A model generated the notes under the pieces. It did no database searches and was not told the DNA's origin. It saw only the letters and a program-made list of their open reading frames with translations. 64,000 nt of DNA, from assembly GCA_014055495.1 (NCBI GenBank), contig WIAG01000011.1, positions 1 to 64,000 of the forward strand, read 5' to 3'. The stretch comes from Nitrospira sp. CR1.2. Lineage in GTDB: Bacteria > Nitrospirota > Nitrospiria > Nitrospirales > Nitrospiraceae. A program made the translations under genes and the position numbers. Every line of letters starts with the position of its first letter. Within the stretch, counting starts at the first letter, position 1. Below, in pieces: positions 54,242-63,675 of this stretch.

Positions 54242-54694
54242 ATGAAAGTGAGTCTTCGAGCTACCTACGGGATTATTGCTGCCGTCGATCTTGCGTTACA
54301 CGATGCCGAGCAGCCGGTGTGTGCCAAGTCCATTGCCAAGCGTCAGGCCATTCCGGCGCGGTTCCTTGAACAAGTGCTTCATGCGATGAAGAAGGCCGGG
54401 GTGGTGACGAGTCAACGCGGGGCGCAGGGCGGGTATGTCTTGAATCGCAAACCATCCGAGCTGTCCGTCGCGGACATTCTCGATGCGTTGGAAGGCCCCC
54501 TGCTGTCAAGCAACGGAGAGGCCGGTCCCAAGGGCACATCGTCGCGAGCCGCGAAGCAAGAAGCGTTGTTGGCACACATTTGGGATCGAGTGAAACGGGC
54601 GGAACTGAGTGTCTTGTCGGAAGTCACGGTCGAAGAGTTGGCCATGCGCCAACGAGCCCTCGACGCGCAGCATACGTTGATGTATCACATCTGA
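54242..54694 (+). CDS. Rrf2-family transcriptional regulator (CymR-like)
   Basis: The 150-residue winged-helix repressor starts MKVSLRATYGIIAAVDLALH and contains RFLEQVLHAMKKAGVV and RGAQGGYVLNRKPSELSVAD, the Rrf2 signature. The three Fe-S ligand cysteines of IscR/NsrR are absent (only Cys27 is present), as in CymR, a regulator of cysteine and sulfur metabolism. Its place before the sulfate-assimilation genes supports control of that operon. Direct evidence of its ligand is lacking. Confidence 0.9.
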   Translation: MKVSLRATYGIIAAVDLALHDAEQPVCAKSIAKRQAIPARFLEQVLHAMKKAGVVTSQRGAQGGYVLNRKPSELSVADILDALEGPLLSSNGEAGPKGTSSRAAKQEALLAHIWDRVKRAELSVLSEVTVEELAMRQRALDAQHTLMYHI

Positions 54695-54745: not shown

Positions 54746-57250
54746 ATGACGAGTTCTCATACAGTGGCGCTCCGTCCCGCCGTCAAAACAGAGCCCATTC
54801 CTCCGCACATCGTGGAGGAAATCGAGACATTCGAAGCGGAAGCCCAACGCGTCCTTGCGGGGGACCTTTCGACCGATATTTTCAAGCCCTTCCGGCTGCA
54901 GTATGGCGTGTATGGTCAACGCCAGCCGGGCGTACAGATGTTCCGCATCAAGATTCCGTTCGGCGGCCTGACGGCCAATCAGGTGCGGCGGGTCGCCGAA
55001 TTGGCCGACCAGTTTGCTACCGGTGTCGGCCATGTGACCACGCGGCAAGATATCCAGTTGCATTTCGTGGAGCTCACGCATGTGCCGGAGATGATGCGGT
55101 CGTTGGCGGCTGTGGGGCTGACGACACGCGAGGCCTGCGCCAACACCGTCCGGAATGTCACCGCCTGTCACCTGGCCGGCGTCTGCCAGGGGGAGGTGTT
55201 CGATGTGACGCCGTATGCGAAGACGGTGGCCTATCATCTGCTGCGGAATCCGCTGAACCAGAGTATGCCGCGGAAATTCAAGATCGCCCTTTCCGGTTGC
55301 CGGCAGGACTGCGCGCTGACCCCCATTCACGACATCGGCCTCCTTGCGGCCAAGCGGGCGGACGGGACCATCGGGTTCCGAATGGTTGCGGGCGGCGGAC
55401 TGGGCTCGACCCCGCGAATGGCGCAGGTGCTCCGAGAGTTTACGCCGATGGAGGAATTGCTGCCGAGTATCGAGGCGGTCATCAAGGTGTTCGACACCCT
55501 GGGCAACCGGAAAAATCGCAACAAGGCTCGCATGAAGTTCGTCATTGAAAAGCTCGGCTTCGACGAGTTTAGGCGACGGTGGGAAGCGGCCTACGCGGCC
55601 ATGGGGTACGCAGTGCCGACCCATGAGCCGATCAAGTTATTAGAGTACGCCGACACGCCGCCATTGCTGATGCCGACCAAGGCACCGGTTGCGTCCGTCG
55701 GGAACGGCAACGGAAATGTGAGTGGCAACGGCCATGCGCCAGTGGGAGCTGCGCACAACGGGCAGGAGACCGCCTTCCAAGCCTGGAGGCGGACCAATGT
55801 GGTGCCGCAACGTCAGGCAGGATTCGTAACTGCGGCCATCAAGCTTCCTATGGGTGACCTCACAGCCGACCAGATGTGGGTGGTGGCTGATTTGGCCGAG
55901 CGCTATTCCAATGGCAACATCCGCACCACCATCAATCAAAACATGGTGATCCGCTGGATACCCGAATCTCGCTTGGAAGCATTCCATGGCGAGCTCGTGG
56001 CCCACAGTCTCGGCGATCCCGGTGCCGAGTTGGTGGAGGACATCATTGCCTGCCCCGGGACGGACACCTGCGGATTAGGGATCACCTCGTCCAAGGGAAT
56101 GGCCCGTGCGTTGGCCGAAGTGTTTCCGGCCGGCCAGGTGCCTGAGGACCTGCGAGATGTGAGCGTCAAGATCAGCGGCTGTCACAATTCGTGTGCTCAG
56201 CACCACATCGCCACCATTGGGCTGCACGGCGTCGGCAAACGTCTTGGTGAGCATACGGCGCCGCATTACGAGCTGCACCTTGGCGGACATGTGGATGGCA
56301 CGCCAAAAATCGGGCAGTTGGCCGTGAAGTTGCCGGCGAAAAGCGTTCCGGCCGCCGTGCGTCATCTGGTGGACGTCTATCGCCGTGATCGGACGACCGG
56401 CGAGAGCCTGCAGTCGTTTATCGGCAGGGTGGGGAAACATGTCCTCAAGGACGAATTGATTCCCTATACGTTTGTACCGCCCTATGAACAGGATCCGACC
56501 TACTACTACGATTGGGAAGGTGAAGCAGAATTTGTGCTGGAAGATCTGGGGCCCGGCGAGTGTGCGGGTGGCGCCTTAGAGATGATCGATGACCGTATGT
56601 TGGAGGCGGACCAGGAACTCTATCAGGCCAAATTGTTGGTCGAAAAACATCAGTATGCCTTGTCGGTCAATAAGTCGTATCGAGCCGTGCTGGCGGCGGC
56701 CAAAGGGTTGTTGGTGACCGAGGGGTTGGATCCGGCTACTGATGCGGATACGTTCCAGGAGTTCGATCAGCGTCTGGCGAGCAAGGGCATCGTGCCGGTC
56801 AGTTACGCCAATCTCGGTGCTCAGGTCGGCGATCTTGGATCGAAGGATGCAACTGCCGAGGCTGCCACGGAGAAAATGGCGTTTGCCAAGCGGTTTCTCG
56901 CGGTTTGCCGGGCGGCCACGGAACAGATGGGAAAGGATCTCAAATTGGCCCAAGTGAAAGAAGAAGTGTTGCCGACCCCGGCTCCGAGTGTGGCGCCGGC
57001 GGCGCCGGTTTCGACGGCGCCGGTGTACGACTTGCGCGGCGTCGCCTGCCCGATGAACTATGTGAAGACCAAACTCAAGCTCGAAATGATGGACGACGGC
57101 GAGCGACTCGAAGTGTGGCTCGATGCCGGAGAACCGATCCGGAATGTGCCGATGAGTTTGCGGAACGACGGGCACAAAATTCTCGAAGAGGGACCGTTGG
57201 AGCCTGAAGCGGCACATTTCAAAATTCTTGTGGAAAAGGTCGAGGGGTAA
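54746..57250 (+). CDS. nitrite/sulfite reductase fused to a C-terminal TusA-like domain
   Basis: The 834-residue protein has two homologous reductase halves (about 45-290 and 345-600) joined by a Gly/Asn-rich linker (319-340). Half 2 has the siroheme-[4Fe-4S] ligands Cys436, Cys442, Cys479 and Cys483. Half 1 also has a full set, Cys141, Cys147, Cys185 and Cys189, where homologues usually lose them. A helical region follows (about 600-740), then a TusA/SirA domain (about 755-834) with ACPMNYVKTKL (Cys768). With cysH, cysD and cysN downstream, the substrate is most likely sulfite. The fusion suggests sulfide or persulfide handover to TusA, which is inference. Confidence 0.88.
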   Translation: MTSSHTVALRPAVKTEPIPPHIVEEIETFEAEAQRVLAGDLSTDIFKPFRLQYGVYGQRQPGVQMFRIKIPFGGLTANQVRRVAELADQFATGVGHVTTRQDIQLHFVELTHVPEMMRSLAAVGLTTREACANTVRNVTACHLAGVCQGEVFDVTPYAKTVAYHLLRNPLNQSMPRKFKIALSGCRQDCALTPIHDIGLLAAKRADGTIGFRMVAGGGLGSTPRMAQVLREFTPMEELLPSIEAVIKVFDTLGNRKNRNKARMKFVIEKLGFDEFRRRWEAAYAAMGYAVPTHEPIKLLEYADTPPLLMPTKAPVASVGNGNGNVSGNGHAPVGAAHNGQETAFQAWRRTNVVPQRQAGFVTAAIKLPMGDLTADQMWVVADLAERYSNGNIRTTINQNMVIRWIPESRLEAFHGELVAHSLGDPGAELVEDIIACPGTDTCGLGITSSKGMARALAEVFPAGQVPEDLRDVSVKISGCHNSCAQHHIATIGLHGVGKRLGEHTAPHYELHLGGHVDGTPKIGQLAVKLPAKSVPAAVRHLVDVYRRDRTTGESLQSFIGRVGKHVLKDELIPYTFVPPYEQDPTYYYDWEGEAEFVLEDLGPGECAGGALEMIDDRMLEADQELYQAKLLVEKHQYALSVNKSYRAVLAAAKGLLVTEGLDPATDADTFQEFDQRLASKGIVPVSYANLGAQVGDLGSKDATAEAATEKMAFAKRFLAVCRAATEQMGKDLKLAQVKEEVLPTPAPSVAPAAPVSTAPVYDLRGVACPMNYVKTKLKLEMMDDGERLEVWLDAGEPIRNVPMSLRNDGHKILEEGPLEPEAAHFKILVEKVEG

Positions 57251-57258
57251 GACACACC

Positions 57259-57990
57259 GTGGCGGAATTGAAAAACACTCATCCCGCAGTCGATCGTCCG
57301 GCGGATGACGAGCTGAAATCGCTGAGCGATTCGTTCGAGGCCAAACAACCGTGGGAGGTGCTGGAGTATGCGTTGAAGGCGTACCGGCACCGGATTGTGT
57401 TGGCCTGTAGTTTCGGGGCTGAGGATGTAGCGCTCGTGGATATGGTGCATCGCATCGATCCCGAGGCGCCGCTGTTTTACCTCGATACCGACTTTCTGTT
57501 TCCTGAAACGCTCGAGGTGCGCGATCGCATCATCGGGAGGTACGGATTGAAGCCCGCCCAGGTCATTCAGATGAAACCGCTGTTGACGCCGGAGCAGCAG
57601 GTTGCGCAGCACGGCGACGCGCTCTGGGCAAGCAAGCCCGATCGATGCTGCGAAATTCGGAAGATTGAACCGCTGACTCGCGTCTTGTCACAATACGGCG
57701 CCTGGATCACCGGCATCAGAAGAGATCAAGCCCCGACGCGAGCCAATGCCGGGTTGATCGAGTGGGATAAGAAGTTCCAGTTAATCAAATTCAACCCGTT
57801 GGCCCGTTGGACGAGTGAGCAGGTCTGGATGTATCTCCAGCTCCACGAAGTCCCGTACAACAGGCTCCACGACCGTAACTACCCCAGCATCGGCTGCACT
57901 CATTGCACTGCGCCTGTCCTTCCGGGCGACGATCCGCGTTCTGGTCGATGGAAGAATTTCGGCAAGACCGAATGCGGGCTGCACAAATAA
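57259..57990 (+). CDS. cysH: adenylyl-sulfate (APS) reductase, assimilatory
   Basis: It reduces activated sulfate to sulfite. The 243-residue protein has the PP-loop-like ACSFGAEDVALVDM start region and the catalytic ECGLH C-terminus (Cys239). CC (130-131) and CxxC (213, 216) are the [4Fe-4S] ligands that mark APS reductases rather than PAPS reductases, so APS kinase should be dispensable for assimilation. The start is a GTG at 57259, eight bases after the reductase stop. Confidence 0.94.
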   Translation: MAELKNTHPAVDRPADDELKSLSDSFEAKQPWEVLEYALKAYRHRIVLACSFGAEDVALVDMVHRIDPEAPLFYLDTDFLFPETLEVRDRIIGRYGLKPAQVIQMKPLLTPEQQVAQHGDALWASKPDRCCEIRKIEPLTRVLSQYGAWITGIRRDQAPTRANAGLIEWDKKFQLIKFNPLARWTSEQVWMYLQLHEVPYNRLHDRNYPSIGCTHCTAPVLPGDDPRSGRWKNFGKTECGLHK

Positions 57991-58031: not shown

Positions 58032-59090
58032 ATGCAACATCTGCTCGCCAAAGTCGCCAAGGGTCAAAAAACGTCCAAAGATCTCACTTGGGAAGAAGCC
58101 AAGCAGGCCATGCGGTTAATGATTGAAGGGACGGCCACACCGGCGCAGGTCGGTGCGTTTCTCACCGCCATGCGCTTCAAGTCGGAATCTGTCACCGAGC
58201 TGGCGGCGTTTACCGCCACCGCGCGGCAATATGTGCCGCCCGTGCCGGTACGTGCCGGACTTGGGGTCGTCGATGTGCCGGTCTACGCGGGCAAACGCGA
58301 GACGTTTCATGCCATCGTGCCTGCCGCGATTGTCGCGGCCGCAGCGGGAGCGGTGTTGTTGCTCCATGGCGTGGATGGTCCTCCTGATCGGCAGGGTGTC
58401 TCGTCGGTGCTGAAGCTGCTGGGCATTCCAGTCGATCTCACTGCCAAGCTCGTTGGCCCGGAACTGGAACGCACCGGTGTCGCCTACCTGGATCTGGCGC
58501 TCTATCACCCGCCGGTCAGCCGGTTTCTCGAACTGCGTCAGGAATTGGGTGTGCGCAATTTCTTTCATCCCGTGGCAAGGATGCTCAATCCCGCTCGCGC
58601 CGGGTCCCAGGTGATCGGGCTGTCCCATCCCCCCTATTTTGAAAAAACGGTCGAGGCGTTGCGCATGCTGAGTTGCCCGCGGGCGCTGGTGATCCGTGGG
58701 GTCGAGGGCGATCCGGAACTGTCGATCGGGAATACGACCCGTCTATTGGAACTCAAGGGCGAGCGCATCACACCGTTCACATTCCAGCCCAAGGATGCGG
58801 GGCTGACGATGGCCACGTTTAGGGAGATGGCGGGATTTCCCGCCGAGCAGCGTGAACGCGAGGCGGACTTGATCAAGCGAATCATCGCCAACGAAATACA
58901 GGGCGGGCAACGAGACTGGGTGTTACTCAACGCTGCCATGCTGTTGTATGCGGCAGGCAAGGGCACATCGATTGCGGGAAATCTGGCCGCCGCCCGGCAC
59001 GCGCTCGAGTCCGGGCAGGCCAAGGCGAAGCTGGCCGAGCTGAGTGCGGGCGCCGGAACCGTGCCGAAGGTCCGCCTGTCGGCCCAATAG
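58032..59090 (+). CDS. TrpD2/YbiB-like protein (anthranilate phosphoribosyltransferase family)
   Basis: The 352-residue protein has the fold of anthranilate phosphoribosyltransferase: an N-terminal helical domain with [19 protein letters not shown] and a larger alpha/beta domain. The PRPP-binding GTGGD of TrpD is replaced by YAGKRETFH, as in the TrpD2 (YbiB) branch. E. coli YbiB binds DNA rather than making tryptophan. No trp genes are near. It lies between cysH and cysD on the same strand, so a role tied to sulfate assimilation is possible but unproved. Confidence 0.8.
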
Positions 59091-59103
59091 GAAGAGTGGA
59101 AGC

Positions 59104-59901
59104 ATGAAACACCTACGTCAATTGGAAGACCAAAGCGTCTATATCCTTCGCGAAGCCTATAAACATTTCAATCACCTCGCCATGCTCTGGTCGATGGGGA
59201 AGGATTCAACGGTGTTGCTGTGGCTGGCCCGCAAGGCCTTCTTCGGGCACGTGCCGTTTCCCCTCTTACACGTGGACACCAGCTACAAAATTCCTGCCAT
59301 GATCGAATATCGCGACCGGATTGCCCGTGAATGGCGGCTGAATCTCGTGGTCGGCCAAAACAAAGAGGCGTTGGCCGCCGGGATGAACCATACGCTGGGT
59401 CGTGACGTCTGCTGCACGGCGTTAAAAACCACGGCGATGAAGAATCTGGTCGAGGAAAAGGGGTACACCGGCATCATCCTGGGTGTGCGTGCGGATGAGG
59501 ACAGTACCAGGGCCAAGGAGCGGTACTTTTCGCCCCGCGACAAGCACGGTGATTGGGACTTTCGCGATCAGCCGCCGGAATTGTGGGATCAGTTCAAGAC
59601 GACGTTTCCGCCGGGTACACATATTCGTATTCACCCGCTTCTCGATTGGACCGAAATCAATATCTGGGAATATATCAAGCACGAGAATATTCCCTTCATG
59701 GATCTCTATTTGGACCGGGGAGATGGCACACGCTATCGCAGTCTGGGCTGTGCTCCCTGTACCAGCCCGATTCAGTCGACGGCGAAGACGGTGGACGAGA
59801 TTATTGTCGAGCTTCGCAAGAGCAATGTGGCGGAGCGGGCCGGTCGGGCACAGGATGCAGGGCGAGGCATGGAGATGCTTCGTAAGAAGGGCTATATGTG
59901 A
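59104..59901 (+). CDS. cysD: sulfate adenylyltransferase subunit 2
   Basis: It forms APS from sulfate and ATP with CysN. The 265-residue PP-loop protein begins [20 protein letters not shown] and contains [18 protein letters not shown] (the PP-loop), [15 protein letters not shown] and [10 protein letters not shown] chose the ATG at 59104 after GGAAGAG. It follows the TrpD2-like gene by 13 bases. Confidence 0.96.
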
Positions 59902-59947: not shown

Positions 59948-61831
59948 ATGGAACAACCGAAGTTTTCTCGAACGAGTAACCCTATGACACAGCATAATCA
60001 GGGTAAGCCGCAGGAGAGTCTGAACATCGTCATCGTGGGGCATGTCGACCACGGGAAGTCCACTTTGGTGGGCCGTCTGTATGCCGATACCGGCTCGTTG
60101 CCGGAAGGCAAGCTGGAGAAGGTCCAGGCGATCTGTCGACAGCAGGGCAAGGAATTCGAATATGCCTTCCTGTTCGATGCGTTTTTGGAAGAGCAGGAAC
60201 AGGGCATTACGATCGACACCGCGCGCACCTTTTTCATTTGGAACGAACGGCAGTACATCATCATCGACGCTCCGGGGCATAAAGAGTTCCTGAAAAACAT
60301 GATCTCCGGCGCCGCTCGTGCCGAGGCGGCACTGTTGTTGATCGATGCCGTGGAAGGCGTGCGTGAACAGTCGAAGAAGCACGGATATCTGCTGTCTCTC
60401 CTGGGGGTCACGCAGTTTGCGGTTGTCGTCAATAAAATGGACCTGGTCGGGTATCGACAGGACGTGTTTGACGCAATAGAAAAGGAATATCGGGAGTTTC
60501 TCGGGCAGTTTCGGGCCGTGCCGCAACAGATGATCCCGGTCAGCGCCAAGATGGGCGACAACATTGCGGCGCGCAGCCGCCACATGAATTGGTACCAAGG
60601 TCCCACGGTGCTGGATACCCTCGCGCTCTTCAAGAAGGAGCAGGTGCGTTCCGAGCAGCCCCTCCGATTCCCGCTGCAGGATGTGTACAAATTCGATGCG
60701 CGCCGTATTCTAGCCGGGCGCATTACCGCGGGTCGCCTGAAGGTCGGTGATCATCTGGTCTTTTCCCCATCCAACAAAACAGCGATCGTGCAGTCGATCG
60801 AGGGATTCAATGTCGATCCACCGACAAGTGAGGCACAAGCCGGACAATCGGTCGGCATCACACTTGACGAACAAATTTTTGTGGAACGCGGCGAGATTGC
60901 TTCCCATCGGGATTCGGTCCCCCTGGTTTCGACGGCCGTCCGGGTGAACTTGTTTTGGATGGGGCGGCGGCCGCTGGAAAAGGGGCGGAAATACACACTG
61001 CGGCTCGCCACGCGTGAGGTCGCCTGTGAGGTCTCGACGATTCACCGTATTATCGACACCGCTGACCTGGCGCAACTTCAGGAAAGCCAATCGGTCGCCA
61101 AGAATCAGGTGGCCGAATTGACGTTGCGGGTCAAGTCGCCGATTGCGTTTGACCTCTCGTCTTCCTTCGAGGCGACCGGTCGCTTTGTGTTGGTGGATGA
61201 GTACGACATTTCCGGCGGTGGGATCATCACCGAACTGGTGCACGACGAACAGGAGGGGCTCCGCGAAGAGGCCCGGCAGCGGGAGTATGCCTGGCTCACG
61301 GGGGACGTCCGTTCCGAAGATCGCGCCCTGCAGTATGGGCATCGAGCCGCCATCGTGCTCTTTACCGGCTCAGCGCAAACCGGCAAGACCTTCCTCGCGC
61401 GACGGGTCGAGGCGTTGCTGGTTGCCGACAGCCGGCATGCCTATCTGTTGGAGGGGGAGAATCTCCTGCAGGGATTGGATGCGGATTTGTCGGCCGCCGA
61501 TCCCTCGTTCGCTTCGGAGCGGGTGCGTCGGTACGGCGAAGTCGCCAGGTTGCTGATCGATACGGGCCTCATCGTGGTGTCTACAAGTAAAACCTTCGGC
61601 ATCAACTATCAACGAATGGCGGAGATGATACGGACCCTCGTCCAACCGGCTCCGGTGATCGCGGTGCATATGAGTCGAGCCGGGGAGGAGCCGCCGCCGA
61701 ACACGGATCTGCATTTTGCGGGGCCGCAGGACTTCGATGCGGCTGCCCGACAAATTATTGAAGAGCTAAAACGGCGGGGTGTGTTGATCCAACCCTCCGG
61801 CACCAGGGCCACGATCCAGTATTCCATTTGA
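59948..61831 (+). CDS. cysN: sulfate adenylyltransferase subunit 1 with degenerate C-terminal APS-kinase domain
   Basis: The 627-residue protein has an EF-Tu-like GTPase domain: [21 protein letters not shown] and SAK are intact (about 31-180), then beta-barrel domains. The C-terminal part (about 459-627) resembles APS kinase but the P-loop reads GSAQTGKT (474-481) instead of GLSGAGKS, and LDGDN is LEGEN. The domain is likely inactive or altered. The ATG at 59948 follows GAGGACC; a second ATG is at 59984. Confidence 0.92.
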
Positions 61832-61978: not shown

Positions 61979-62905
61979 ATGACCATGGCTGCCGATAAGG
62001 ATCTCAAGGCGATCCTGACAAAACTGCAGTATTCCGACGACGCAAAGGTCGTGCAACAGATTACCGCGCAGATGAAGCAGGTGCAGGCTCGGATGGCCGG
62101 CATCAAGCGGAAACTCGTGGTGATGAGCGGAAAGGGTGGAGTCGGGAAGAGCATGACGACCGTGAATCTCGCCTTGGCATTCGCCCGCCAGGGAGCTAAG
62201 GTCGGATTGCTCGATGTGGATTTGAATGGTCCCTGTGTTCCGCGGATGATGGGCCTGCATGGCCAGTCGTTGACCATGACTGCCGATGGAGCTCTGCCCC
62301 CGGTCGGGCCGCTCGGGATCAAGGTCGCCTCGATGGATTTTTTCCTCGGCGATGCGTCGCCCGTCCGGTGGAAAGGCCCGATGGATCTGAGCCCCGTGTG
62401 GCTGGGATTGATGGAAATGAATGTAATCCGGGAGTTCCTCGCTGATGTGGCATGGGGGGAGTTGGATTATCTTCTGGCCGACTTGCCTCCGGGCGCGGCC
62501 GCGGATAAACCGCCGGTCATTGCCGGGTTTATTCCGGATCTAGCCGGGGCGATTGTCGTGACGACACCGTCGGAGGTGGCGTCAGATGTGGTGCAGAAAT
62601 CGGTGACCTACGCCAGAGACATGGGCATCCGGGTGTTAGGCATTGTGGAAAATATGAGTGAGTATCGGTGCCCGTCCTGTGGCGCTGAAAATGAACTATT
62701 CGAGGGGAATACCGAGGCGATGTGCGAGGTGCTGGACGTGCCGTTGCTGGGCCGCATCCCCTTCGATCGCACGCTTGCCAAGACGTTCGATAAGGGGCAA
62801 CCGCTTCTCGATGCTGACTATCCGACCATTCGGAAATATCAGGACATTGTCGGGCGGGTTCAAGCGTTATTGGATTATAAAAAAGTCCTGGCGGAGAAGC
62901 TGTAA
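61979..62905 (+). CDS. Mrp/NBP35-family ATPase (iron-sulfur cluster carrier)
   Basis: The 308-residue P-loop protein carries an N-terminal segment, then VVMSGKGGVGKSMTTVNLA (about 47-65, the deviant Walker A), VDLNGPCVPRMMGL and a C-terminal CPSC pair in RCPSCGAENELF. This family assembles or transfers Fe-S clusters, or is linked to nitrogen and sulfur enzymes. The start ATG at 61979 follows GAGGG; an ATG at 61985 is also possible. It lies 147 bases after cysN and may serve the Fe-S reductases upstream, which is inference. Confidence 0.93.
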   Translation: MTMAADKDLKAILTKLQYSDDAKVVQQITAQMKQVQARMAGIKRKLVVMSGKGGVGKSMTTVNLALAFARQGAKVGLLDVDLNGPCVPRMMGLHGQSLTMTADGALPPVGPLGIKVASMDFFLGDASPVRWKGPMDLSPVWLGLMEMNVIREFLADVAWGELDYLLADLPPGAAADKPPVIAGFIPDLAGAIVVTTPSEVASDVVQKSVTYARDMGIRVLGIVENMSEYRCPSCGAENELFEGNTEAMCEVLDVPLLGRIPFDRTLAKTFDKGQPLLDADYPTIRKYQDIVGRVQALLDYKKVLAEKL

Positions 62906-62931: not shown

Positions 62932-63675
62932 ATGAAGTTCGTTTGCCTGAACTGCGAGACCTACATGACGTTTCAGAAGGTCGAAAAACCCGGTGAGGGC
63001 TCACTCGGTGTGTTCTTCGGCTGCCCATCGTGCGACGCAAAGTTTTCCATGGTGACGAACCCCGGTGAGACGCAAATGGTTGCGTCCCTCGGCGTGAAGC
63101 TCGGAGGCCGAACCGAGACGGCGGAGCCGTTCGAAATGACTCGTGGAACCTTGAAGGATGAGGCTCAGGCCGGTGCAGGGCAGATGGCGGCGTATCTTAA
63201 CGAGAAGATCCAGGGTGGTCAACCGGCAGCGGCCAAACCTGCTGCCCAGGCGGCCAGTGGAGAGAAGACCAGTGGAGGATGTCCATTCTCAGCGATGGTC
63301 GCTGAGATGGGGCTGACCTCCGGGGGCAAGCCTCAGAACGGCACCGGCGAATTTACTTGGACTCCGGATGCCAAAGAAAAACTGGAGCGCCTCCCGTCGT
63401 TCGTGAAGCCGATGGTGCAGAGCAGCGTTGAAGCTTATGCGCGTAAACATGGGTATAAGTCGATTACGTTGCAGGTCATGGACGACTCGAAGAACGATTC
63501 GCCCAATGGGATTGCCTGGACGAAGGACGCAGAGCAGCGTATGGATAACATCCCTGACTTCATCCGCCCGATGGCCAGGCGAGAAATCGAACGGATCGCC
63601 AAGGAGCGGGGCTTGGCCGAGATCACGGCGCAAGTGATGGACGAGGCCAAAGAAAAGTTTATGAAGTTTATGTAG
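62932..63675 (+). CDS. zinc-ribbon protein with two PCP_red domains
   Basis: The 247-residue protein has an N-terminal zinc ribbon (CLNC at 5-8, CPSC near 32-35) and, after a low-complexity linker, two copies of the PCP_red domain: WTPDAKEKLERLPSFVKPMV and WTKDAEQRMDNIPDFIRPMA, each with GY/L-x-x-IT-x-QVMD. PCP_red domains occur at the C-terminus of BchB/ChlB (light-independent protochlorophyllide reductase) but also as stand-alone proteins in non-phototrophs. Nothing else here is photosynthetic. The AAGGGGGATCC region precedes the ATG. Confidence 0.85.
   Translation: MKFVCLNCETYMTFQKVEKPGEGSLGVFFGCPSCDAKFSMVTNPGETQMVASLGVKLGGRTETAEPFEMTRGTLKDEAQAGAGQMAAYLNEKIQGGQPAAAKPAAQAASGEKTSGGCPFSAMVAEMGLTSGGKPQNGTGEFTWTPDAKEKLERLPSFVKPMVQSSVEAYARKHGYKSITLQVMDDSKNDSPNGIAWTKDAEQRMDNIPDFIRPMARREIERIAKERGLAEITAQVMDEAKEKFMKFM

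Follow-up and report, generated by a model that had tools for sequence, protein, structure and literature searches.

Does a siroheme reductase whose single chain carries cluster-type cysteines in both halves hold a second iron-sulfur centre, and how would such a centre operate next to a fused sulfur carrier? The question is raised by an open reading frame of 834 aa in Nitrospira sp. CR1.2, which runs exactly from the ATG at position 54746 to the end of the stop codon at 57250 of the window, i.e. the entire stretch of 64,000 nucleotides that was analysed. The best relative is 95% identical, and the genome is placed near N. defluvii. According to PMC10229431, the accepted account is that one repeat of the fused assimilatory enzymes lost the cluster motif.

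Domain searches at curated cut-offs yielded two copies each of NIR_SIR (195.2 bits) and NIR_SIR_ferr (126.7 bits), which assigns the protein to the siroheme reductase superfamily, followed by HEPN and TusA (Table 1); fold families other than those listed by the structure search may also match. The helical region and the TusA domain named by the sequence-only reading were thus recovered, the former as a HEPN-fold domain by Pfam and fold search, the latter by Pfam. The protein contains cysteines at positions 131, 141, 147, 185, 189, 436, 442, 479, 483, 606, 721, and 768. Nine of them lie in the core (residues 45-572), namely C131 and the eight cysteines of two complete CX5C...CX3C sets, C141/147/185/189 and C436/442/479/483, precisely where they had been reported. 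Y56 (54911-54913) and C131 (55136-55138) co-occur in 37 of 51 sequences, and C131 is aligned with the tyrosine-cross-linked cysteine of M. tuberculosis NirA.

Table 1. Features of the reductase locus and the adjoining genes (positions refer to the window).
Feature	Positions	Strand	Remarks
Rrf2 regulator	54242..54694	+	nearest named model CymR, below its cut-off
Twin-motif siroheme reductase (most likely of sulfite), HEPN-fold domain, TusA fusion	54746..57250	+	834 aa
Repeat 1, ferredoxin-like half domain and NIR_SIR	54905..55585	+	residues 54-280
C141 and C147	55166..55186	+	half-1 first CX5C
C185 and C189	55298..55312	+	half-1 CX3C
Repeat 2, ferredoxin-like half domain and NIR_SIR	55805..56458	+	residues 354-571
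C436 and C442	56051..56071	+	half-2 CX5C
C479 and C483	56180..56194	+	half-2 CX3C; C483 is the expected siroheme-bridging cysteine
HEPN-fold helical domain	56567..56932	+	residues 608-729; Pfam HEPN 24.2 bits; Z 13.4 to 2hsb
TusA domain	57026..57238	+	residues 761-831; active-site Cys768 in CPMN
CysH, (P)APS reductase	57259..57990	+	
TrpD-like phosphoribosyltransferase	58032..59090	+	inside the cys operon; below the trpD cut-off
CysD	59101..59901	+	
CysN-CysC fusion	59948..61831	+	
Mrp/ApbC-type Fe-S carrier ATPase	61979..62905	+	
Small protein	62932..63675	+	two PCP_red domains

The protein did not reach the cut-off of any of the named reductase models tested. With the NCBIfam NirA equivalogs it scored 281 bits for NF007126 (cut-off 523) and 252.7 bits for NF007125 (cut-off 594), with CysI TIGR02041 126.8 vs 756.55 bits, and the ferredoxin-dependent sulfite reductase TIGR02042 121.8 vs 731.5 bits. 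The dsrA model gave 37.1 bits (cut-off 392.85) and the dsrB model 77.8 bits (cut-off 341.5), and the chain is fused with a CX5C...CX3C motif, which separates it from DsrAB. Nor is it of the monomeric aSir type, in which half 1 is without the cluster motif, given the presence of C141/147/185/189.

Alignment places both cysteine sets at the cluster cysteines of solved siroheme reductases. When the half-1 fragment was aligned to the F420-dependent sulfite reductase 7np8, all four cluster cysteines were matched, with ACPGGGNC and SGCPNGC opposite ACHLAGVC and SGCRQDC. Moreover, when the two halves were aligned as profiles (probability 99.8), this paired C141 with C436, C147 with C442, C185 with C479, and C189 with C483. 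The solved plant NiR and M. tuberculosis NirA chains align over the same half-1 stretch and are devoid of the motif, and the complete first set was present in none of the solved NiR/SiR chains aligned. The E. coli CysI sequence, used as a lead only, presumably does not carry the half-1 motif either. The AlphaFold model of the whole protein (mean pLDDT 65.6, pTM 0.52) is weak at both motif regions, with pLDDT below 50 at residues 131-136, 430-447, and 479-484. Taken together, the proposal that the half-1 cysteines occupy cluster positions agrees with the alignments to the solved enzymes and to half 2, and these sequence comparisons give good support to a second set of cluster-binding cysteines in half 1. 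The accompanying statement that the C-terminal repeat alone keeps the four cysteines applies to the monomeric assimilatory enzymes; it does not extend to DsrA and DsrB, separate subunits each of which has a cluster site (PMC10229431).

The half-1 set is also conserved. It is complete in 79 of 79 close sequences of a first examination and, among 24 diverse Nitrospirota orthologs whose core identity is as low as 42%, in 22; the half-1 CX5C occurs in every member of the first close Nitrospira set (80 sequences, including the window and its reference copy), as well as in three loci missed by the CX5C pattern. An ortholog is present in Nitrospira moscoviensis (L063). Both exceptions (L115 and L116) belong to one clade, family f8, in which C147 and C189 were lost together, leaving the pattern C,S,C,H. 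Since the set is retained in 22 of 24 orthologs at such divergence and the exceptions form a single clade, the alignments indicate that it is more than chance. The 27 relatives compared outside the family have zero to three half-1 cysteines each, and among the 528 core columns C147 is the sole one conserved inside (at least 22/24) and rare outside (at most 5%; here 0/27). On an unrooted tree the four-cysteine state requires three changes, consistent with one origin or retention followed by a few losses. As phyla outside Nitrospirota were sampled through plasmid records only, the twin motif may exist elsewhere as well.

These data bear on the reading that the protein is an ordinary single-site assimilatory sulfite reductase, in which the half-1 cysteines are relics of the duplication, kept for folding or redox protection, and bind no second cluster. 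Partial relics are indeed common, as three of the four half-1 cysteines are found in many NirA-type relatives, and the Thermus enzyme as well as one Nitrospirota family do without two of the four. However, the family-specific conservation of C147 and its joint loss with C189 argue against this reading, and relic cysteines with no ligand to hold should hardly last where core identities fall to 42%. We consider it unlikely. Still, the incomplete sets of that Nitrospirota family and of Thermus indicate that the scaffold would not depend on a second cluster.

Several variants of the half-1 motif were observed in addition. The C,S,C,H pattern of L115 and L116 recurs in Thermus oshimai (L151), with the histidine at or near the position of the bridging cysteine. 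In the NirA-type half 1s with three of four cysteines (L002, L140-L145, L158-L160, L162) the fourth is often Asp or Ser, and these might still hold a cluster. Furthermore, open frames of ~1,070-1,100 aa (L135-L139) comprise a siroheme-reductase C-terminal part with PNRLN instead of PRKFK, whereby both substrate lysines are replaced.

The two cluster sites differ in their surroundings. For Fsr and its relatives, PMC10229431 describes sulfite binding by two arginines and two lysines, joined by a further arginine in the assimilatory types; one repeat provides most of the siroheme anchoring, and the partner repeat holds the cluster. In the query, the corresponding R67, R136, K177, and K179 of half 1, together with the aSir-type R100, are invariant in 24 orthologs. 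Their half-2 equivalents A364, E431, D471, S473, and N397 are replacements and mostly variable. The half-2 CX5C...CX3C motif combined with these half-1 residues conforms to the superfamily, the residue roles being taken from PMC10229431; judged by its residues, the cluster site of half 2 amounts to a full assimilatory active site that would receive its sulfite-binding residues from half 1. The half-1 cluster site is most likely a non-catalytic [4Fe-4S] centre similar to the DsrA site, because half 2 provides none of the four sulfite-binding residues. Two coupled cofactors in one chain, as initially suggested, would be plausible, whereas the notion that they are of equal catalytic rank is not supported, given the half-2 replacements.

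N481 in the half-2 CHNSC is invariant in the family and its half-1 counterpart Q187 is not conserved; thus, siroheme binding may have been lost at the second site, leaving a cluster without siroheme. If siroheme is present, the spacing of 9.4 Å between the sirohemes of Fsr, as given in PMC10229431, suggests by analogy that electron exchange between the sites would be feasible. In that case the enzyme could comprise a catalytic siroheme-[4Fe-4S] centre and another for relay or storage, and could pass sulfur straight to the fused TusA, as a fused assimilatory counterpart of DsrAB plus carrier that keeps both cluster sites of the duplicated ancestor. We regard this as a tentative reading of rather low probability.

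The C-terminal domains are likewise distinctive. The HEPN assignment exceeds the Pfam cut-off of 22 bits, and the match to 2hsb extends over 119 residues at 3.1 Å. The HEPN RNase motif RX4-6H was not found in the HEPN domain of the query, which has KLLVEKH instead, and it is not conserved in the relatives. TusA scored 57 vs 28.6 bits with Pfam, and the CP cysteine is present in all fused copies examined. All fused copies and the adjacent stand-alone copies have CPxN and not CPxP, which may mean a different chemistry or different partners for the carrier. Among the Nitrospirota members examined in detail, family f6 alone is without the TusA fusion; there, the gene directly after the reductase encodes a separate TusA of the same CPMNFVKTKL type. 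This recurrent fusion or adjacency supports, at the level of gene arrangement, a working link between reductase and carrier. Together with the conserved CP cysteine, it lends indirect support to the hand-over of sulfur to a carrier that the sequence-only reading suggested.

A tie between the twin motif and the TusA fusion was considered and ruled out, as the two vary independently: f6 has the motif with a separate TusA, and f8 has the fusion with two half-1 cysteines lost. Neither feature therefore explains the other.

In the window the reductase gene follows the Rrf2 gene and precedes cysH, the TrpD-like gene, cysD, cysNC, mrp, and the PCP_red gene. In distant relatives the order is Rrf2-TauE-AprA-ferredoxin-reductase-Sat, with DsrE in one. 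Such operons in four Nitrospirota loci (L115, L116, L117, L122; AprA verified in L115 and L122, TauE in L115 and L117) represent a compact sulfate-to-sulfide set based on AprAB and the reductase. In family f8 (L115, L116) the Mrp and PCP_red pair likewise follows the reductase, which suggests that the pair may take part in loading Fe-S clusters or siroheme. The TrpD-like gene lies beside the reductase in L119 and L120 as well, two loci without a detected cysH in the vicinity. A search for sigma-70-like promoters, terminator-like sites, and Rfam elements returned none at the locus.

The genome contains only two NIR_SIR genes, the reductase and a NirA-type gene that adjoins a cyanase gene (read from its translation). 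Given the Rrf2, CysH, CysD, and CysNC neighbours here, AprAB, TauE, and Sat in the relatives, and the NirA type of the other NIR_SIR gene, the enzyme is most likely an assimilatory sulfite reductase. Since no CysJ-type FAD_binding_1 domain was found while the controls were positive, we infer that ferredoxin is probably the electron donor. A function as nitrite reductase is conceivable insofar as NirA or plant nitrite reductases provide the nearest solved chains and the nearest NCBIfam models, the scores staying below the model cut-offs, and siroheme enzymes often reduce both sulfite and nitrite (PMC10229431). However, the cys operon, the AprAB-Sat operon in relatives, the TusA fusion, and the separate NirA-type gene in the same genome make it very unlikely. 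That the chain forms two fully catalytic siroheme-[4Fe-4S] centres, as in a homodimeric ancestor, is likewise very unlikely. Half 1 does resemble a whole Fsr repeat, substrate residues and cluster cysteines included, but its cluster site would depend for substrate residues on half 2, in which none of the four is kept.

With moderate confidence we therefore favour a ferredoxin-dependent assimilatory sulfite reductase with a single catalytic site, a second, non-catalytic [4Fe-4S] cluster in half 1, and a TusA domain placed by the HEPN fold. The chain would fold into two tandem repeats in the arrangement of a fused pair, and sulfite would be reduced at one siroheme-[4Fe-4S] centre with the cluster from half 2 and the substrate residues from half 1. 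Half 1 would bind the second cluster, at which no sulfite could be held without substrate residues in half 2; this cluster would be a counterpart of the non-catalytic DsrA site that might play a structural part and relay or store electrons. TusA would be positioned by the HEPN-fold domain such that Cys768 could take the reduced sulfur or hand it on.

As far as the searched literature shows, this is a real, conserved variant of a known enzyme class that has gone undescribed; among the papers listed by the searches, none was described there as treating such an enzyme in Nitrospira, a SiR-TusA or SiR-HEPN protein, or thiocarboxylate links. A family that kept the motif across several Nitrospirota classes offers an intermediate, open to testing, between homodimeric, DsrAB-type, and single-site enzymes, and its natural losses allow comparison. 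Moreover, in view of the fusion one may ask if the assimilatory reduction of sulfite can deliver bound sulfur instead of free sulfide. Separately, a scan of viral contigs for diverse homologs returned one locus only, on IMGVR_UViG_3300048686_000783 (L164:2878-4440), where a NirA-type nitrite reductase gene lies between genes that by eye resemble phage structural genes, a possible phage-borne nirA.

Among known systems, the query shares with CysI, plant SiR, plant NiR, and M. tuberculosis NirA the tandem repeats, the catalytic cluster in half 2, and the substrate residues in half 1; its best fold match is 1zj8 (Z 29.2 over 482 residues). Unlike the solved assimilatory enzymes aligned, it keeps the half-1 motif, and the compared sequences are without HEPN or TusA. 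It resembles DsrAB, whose functional pair combines a catalytic with a structural cluster site (PMC10229431), in having two such sites. DsrAB passes its sulfur to the carrier DsrC, the putative counterpart here being the TusA domain. Whereas DsrAB consists of separate subunits with inserted ferredoxin domains and CXnCCX3C, the query is one chain with the assimilatory CX5C...CX3C. Half 1 aligns to the single repeat of Fsr with all four cluster cysteines and the substrate R/K residues matched, and the fold match to 7npa has Z 18.5 over 220 residues. Fsr, however, assembles as a homotetramer, and its chain joins one repeat to an F420H2-oxidase half. The plasmid-borne nitrite/sulfite reductases of the Bacteroidota Persicobacter and Aureibacter have the same core and HEPN region, but no cysteine at the four half-1 positions and no TusA. 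Finally, the plasmid-borne nitrite/sulfite reductase of Thermus oshimai, 42% identical over the matched core and encoded in a sulfate-assimilation operon, has C,S,C,H in half 1 and neither HEPN nor TusA.
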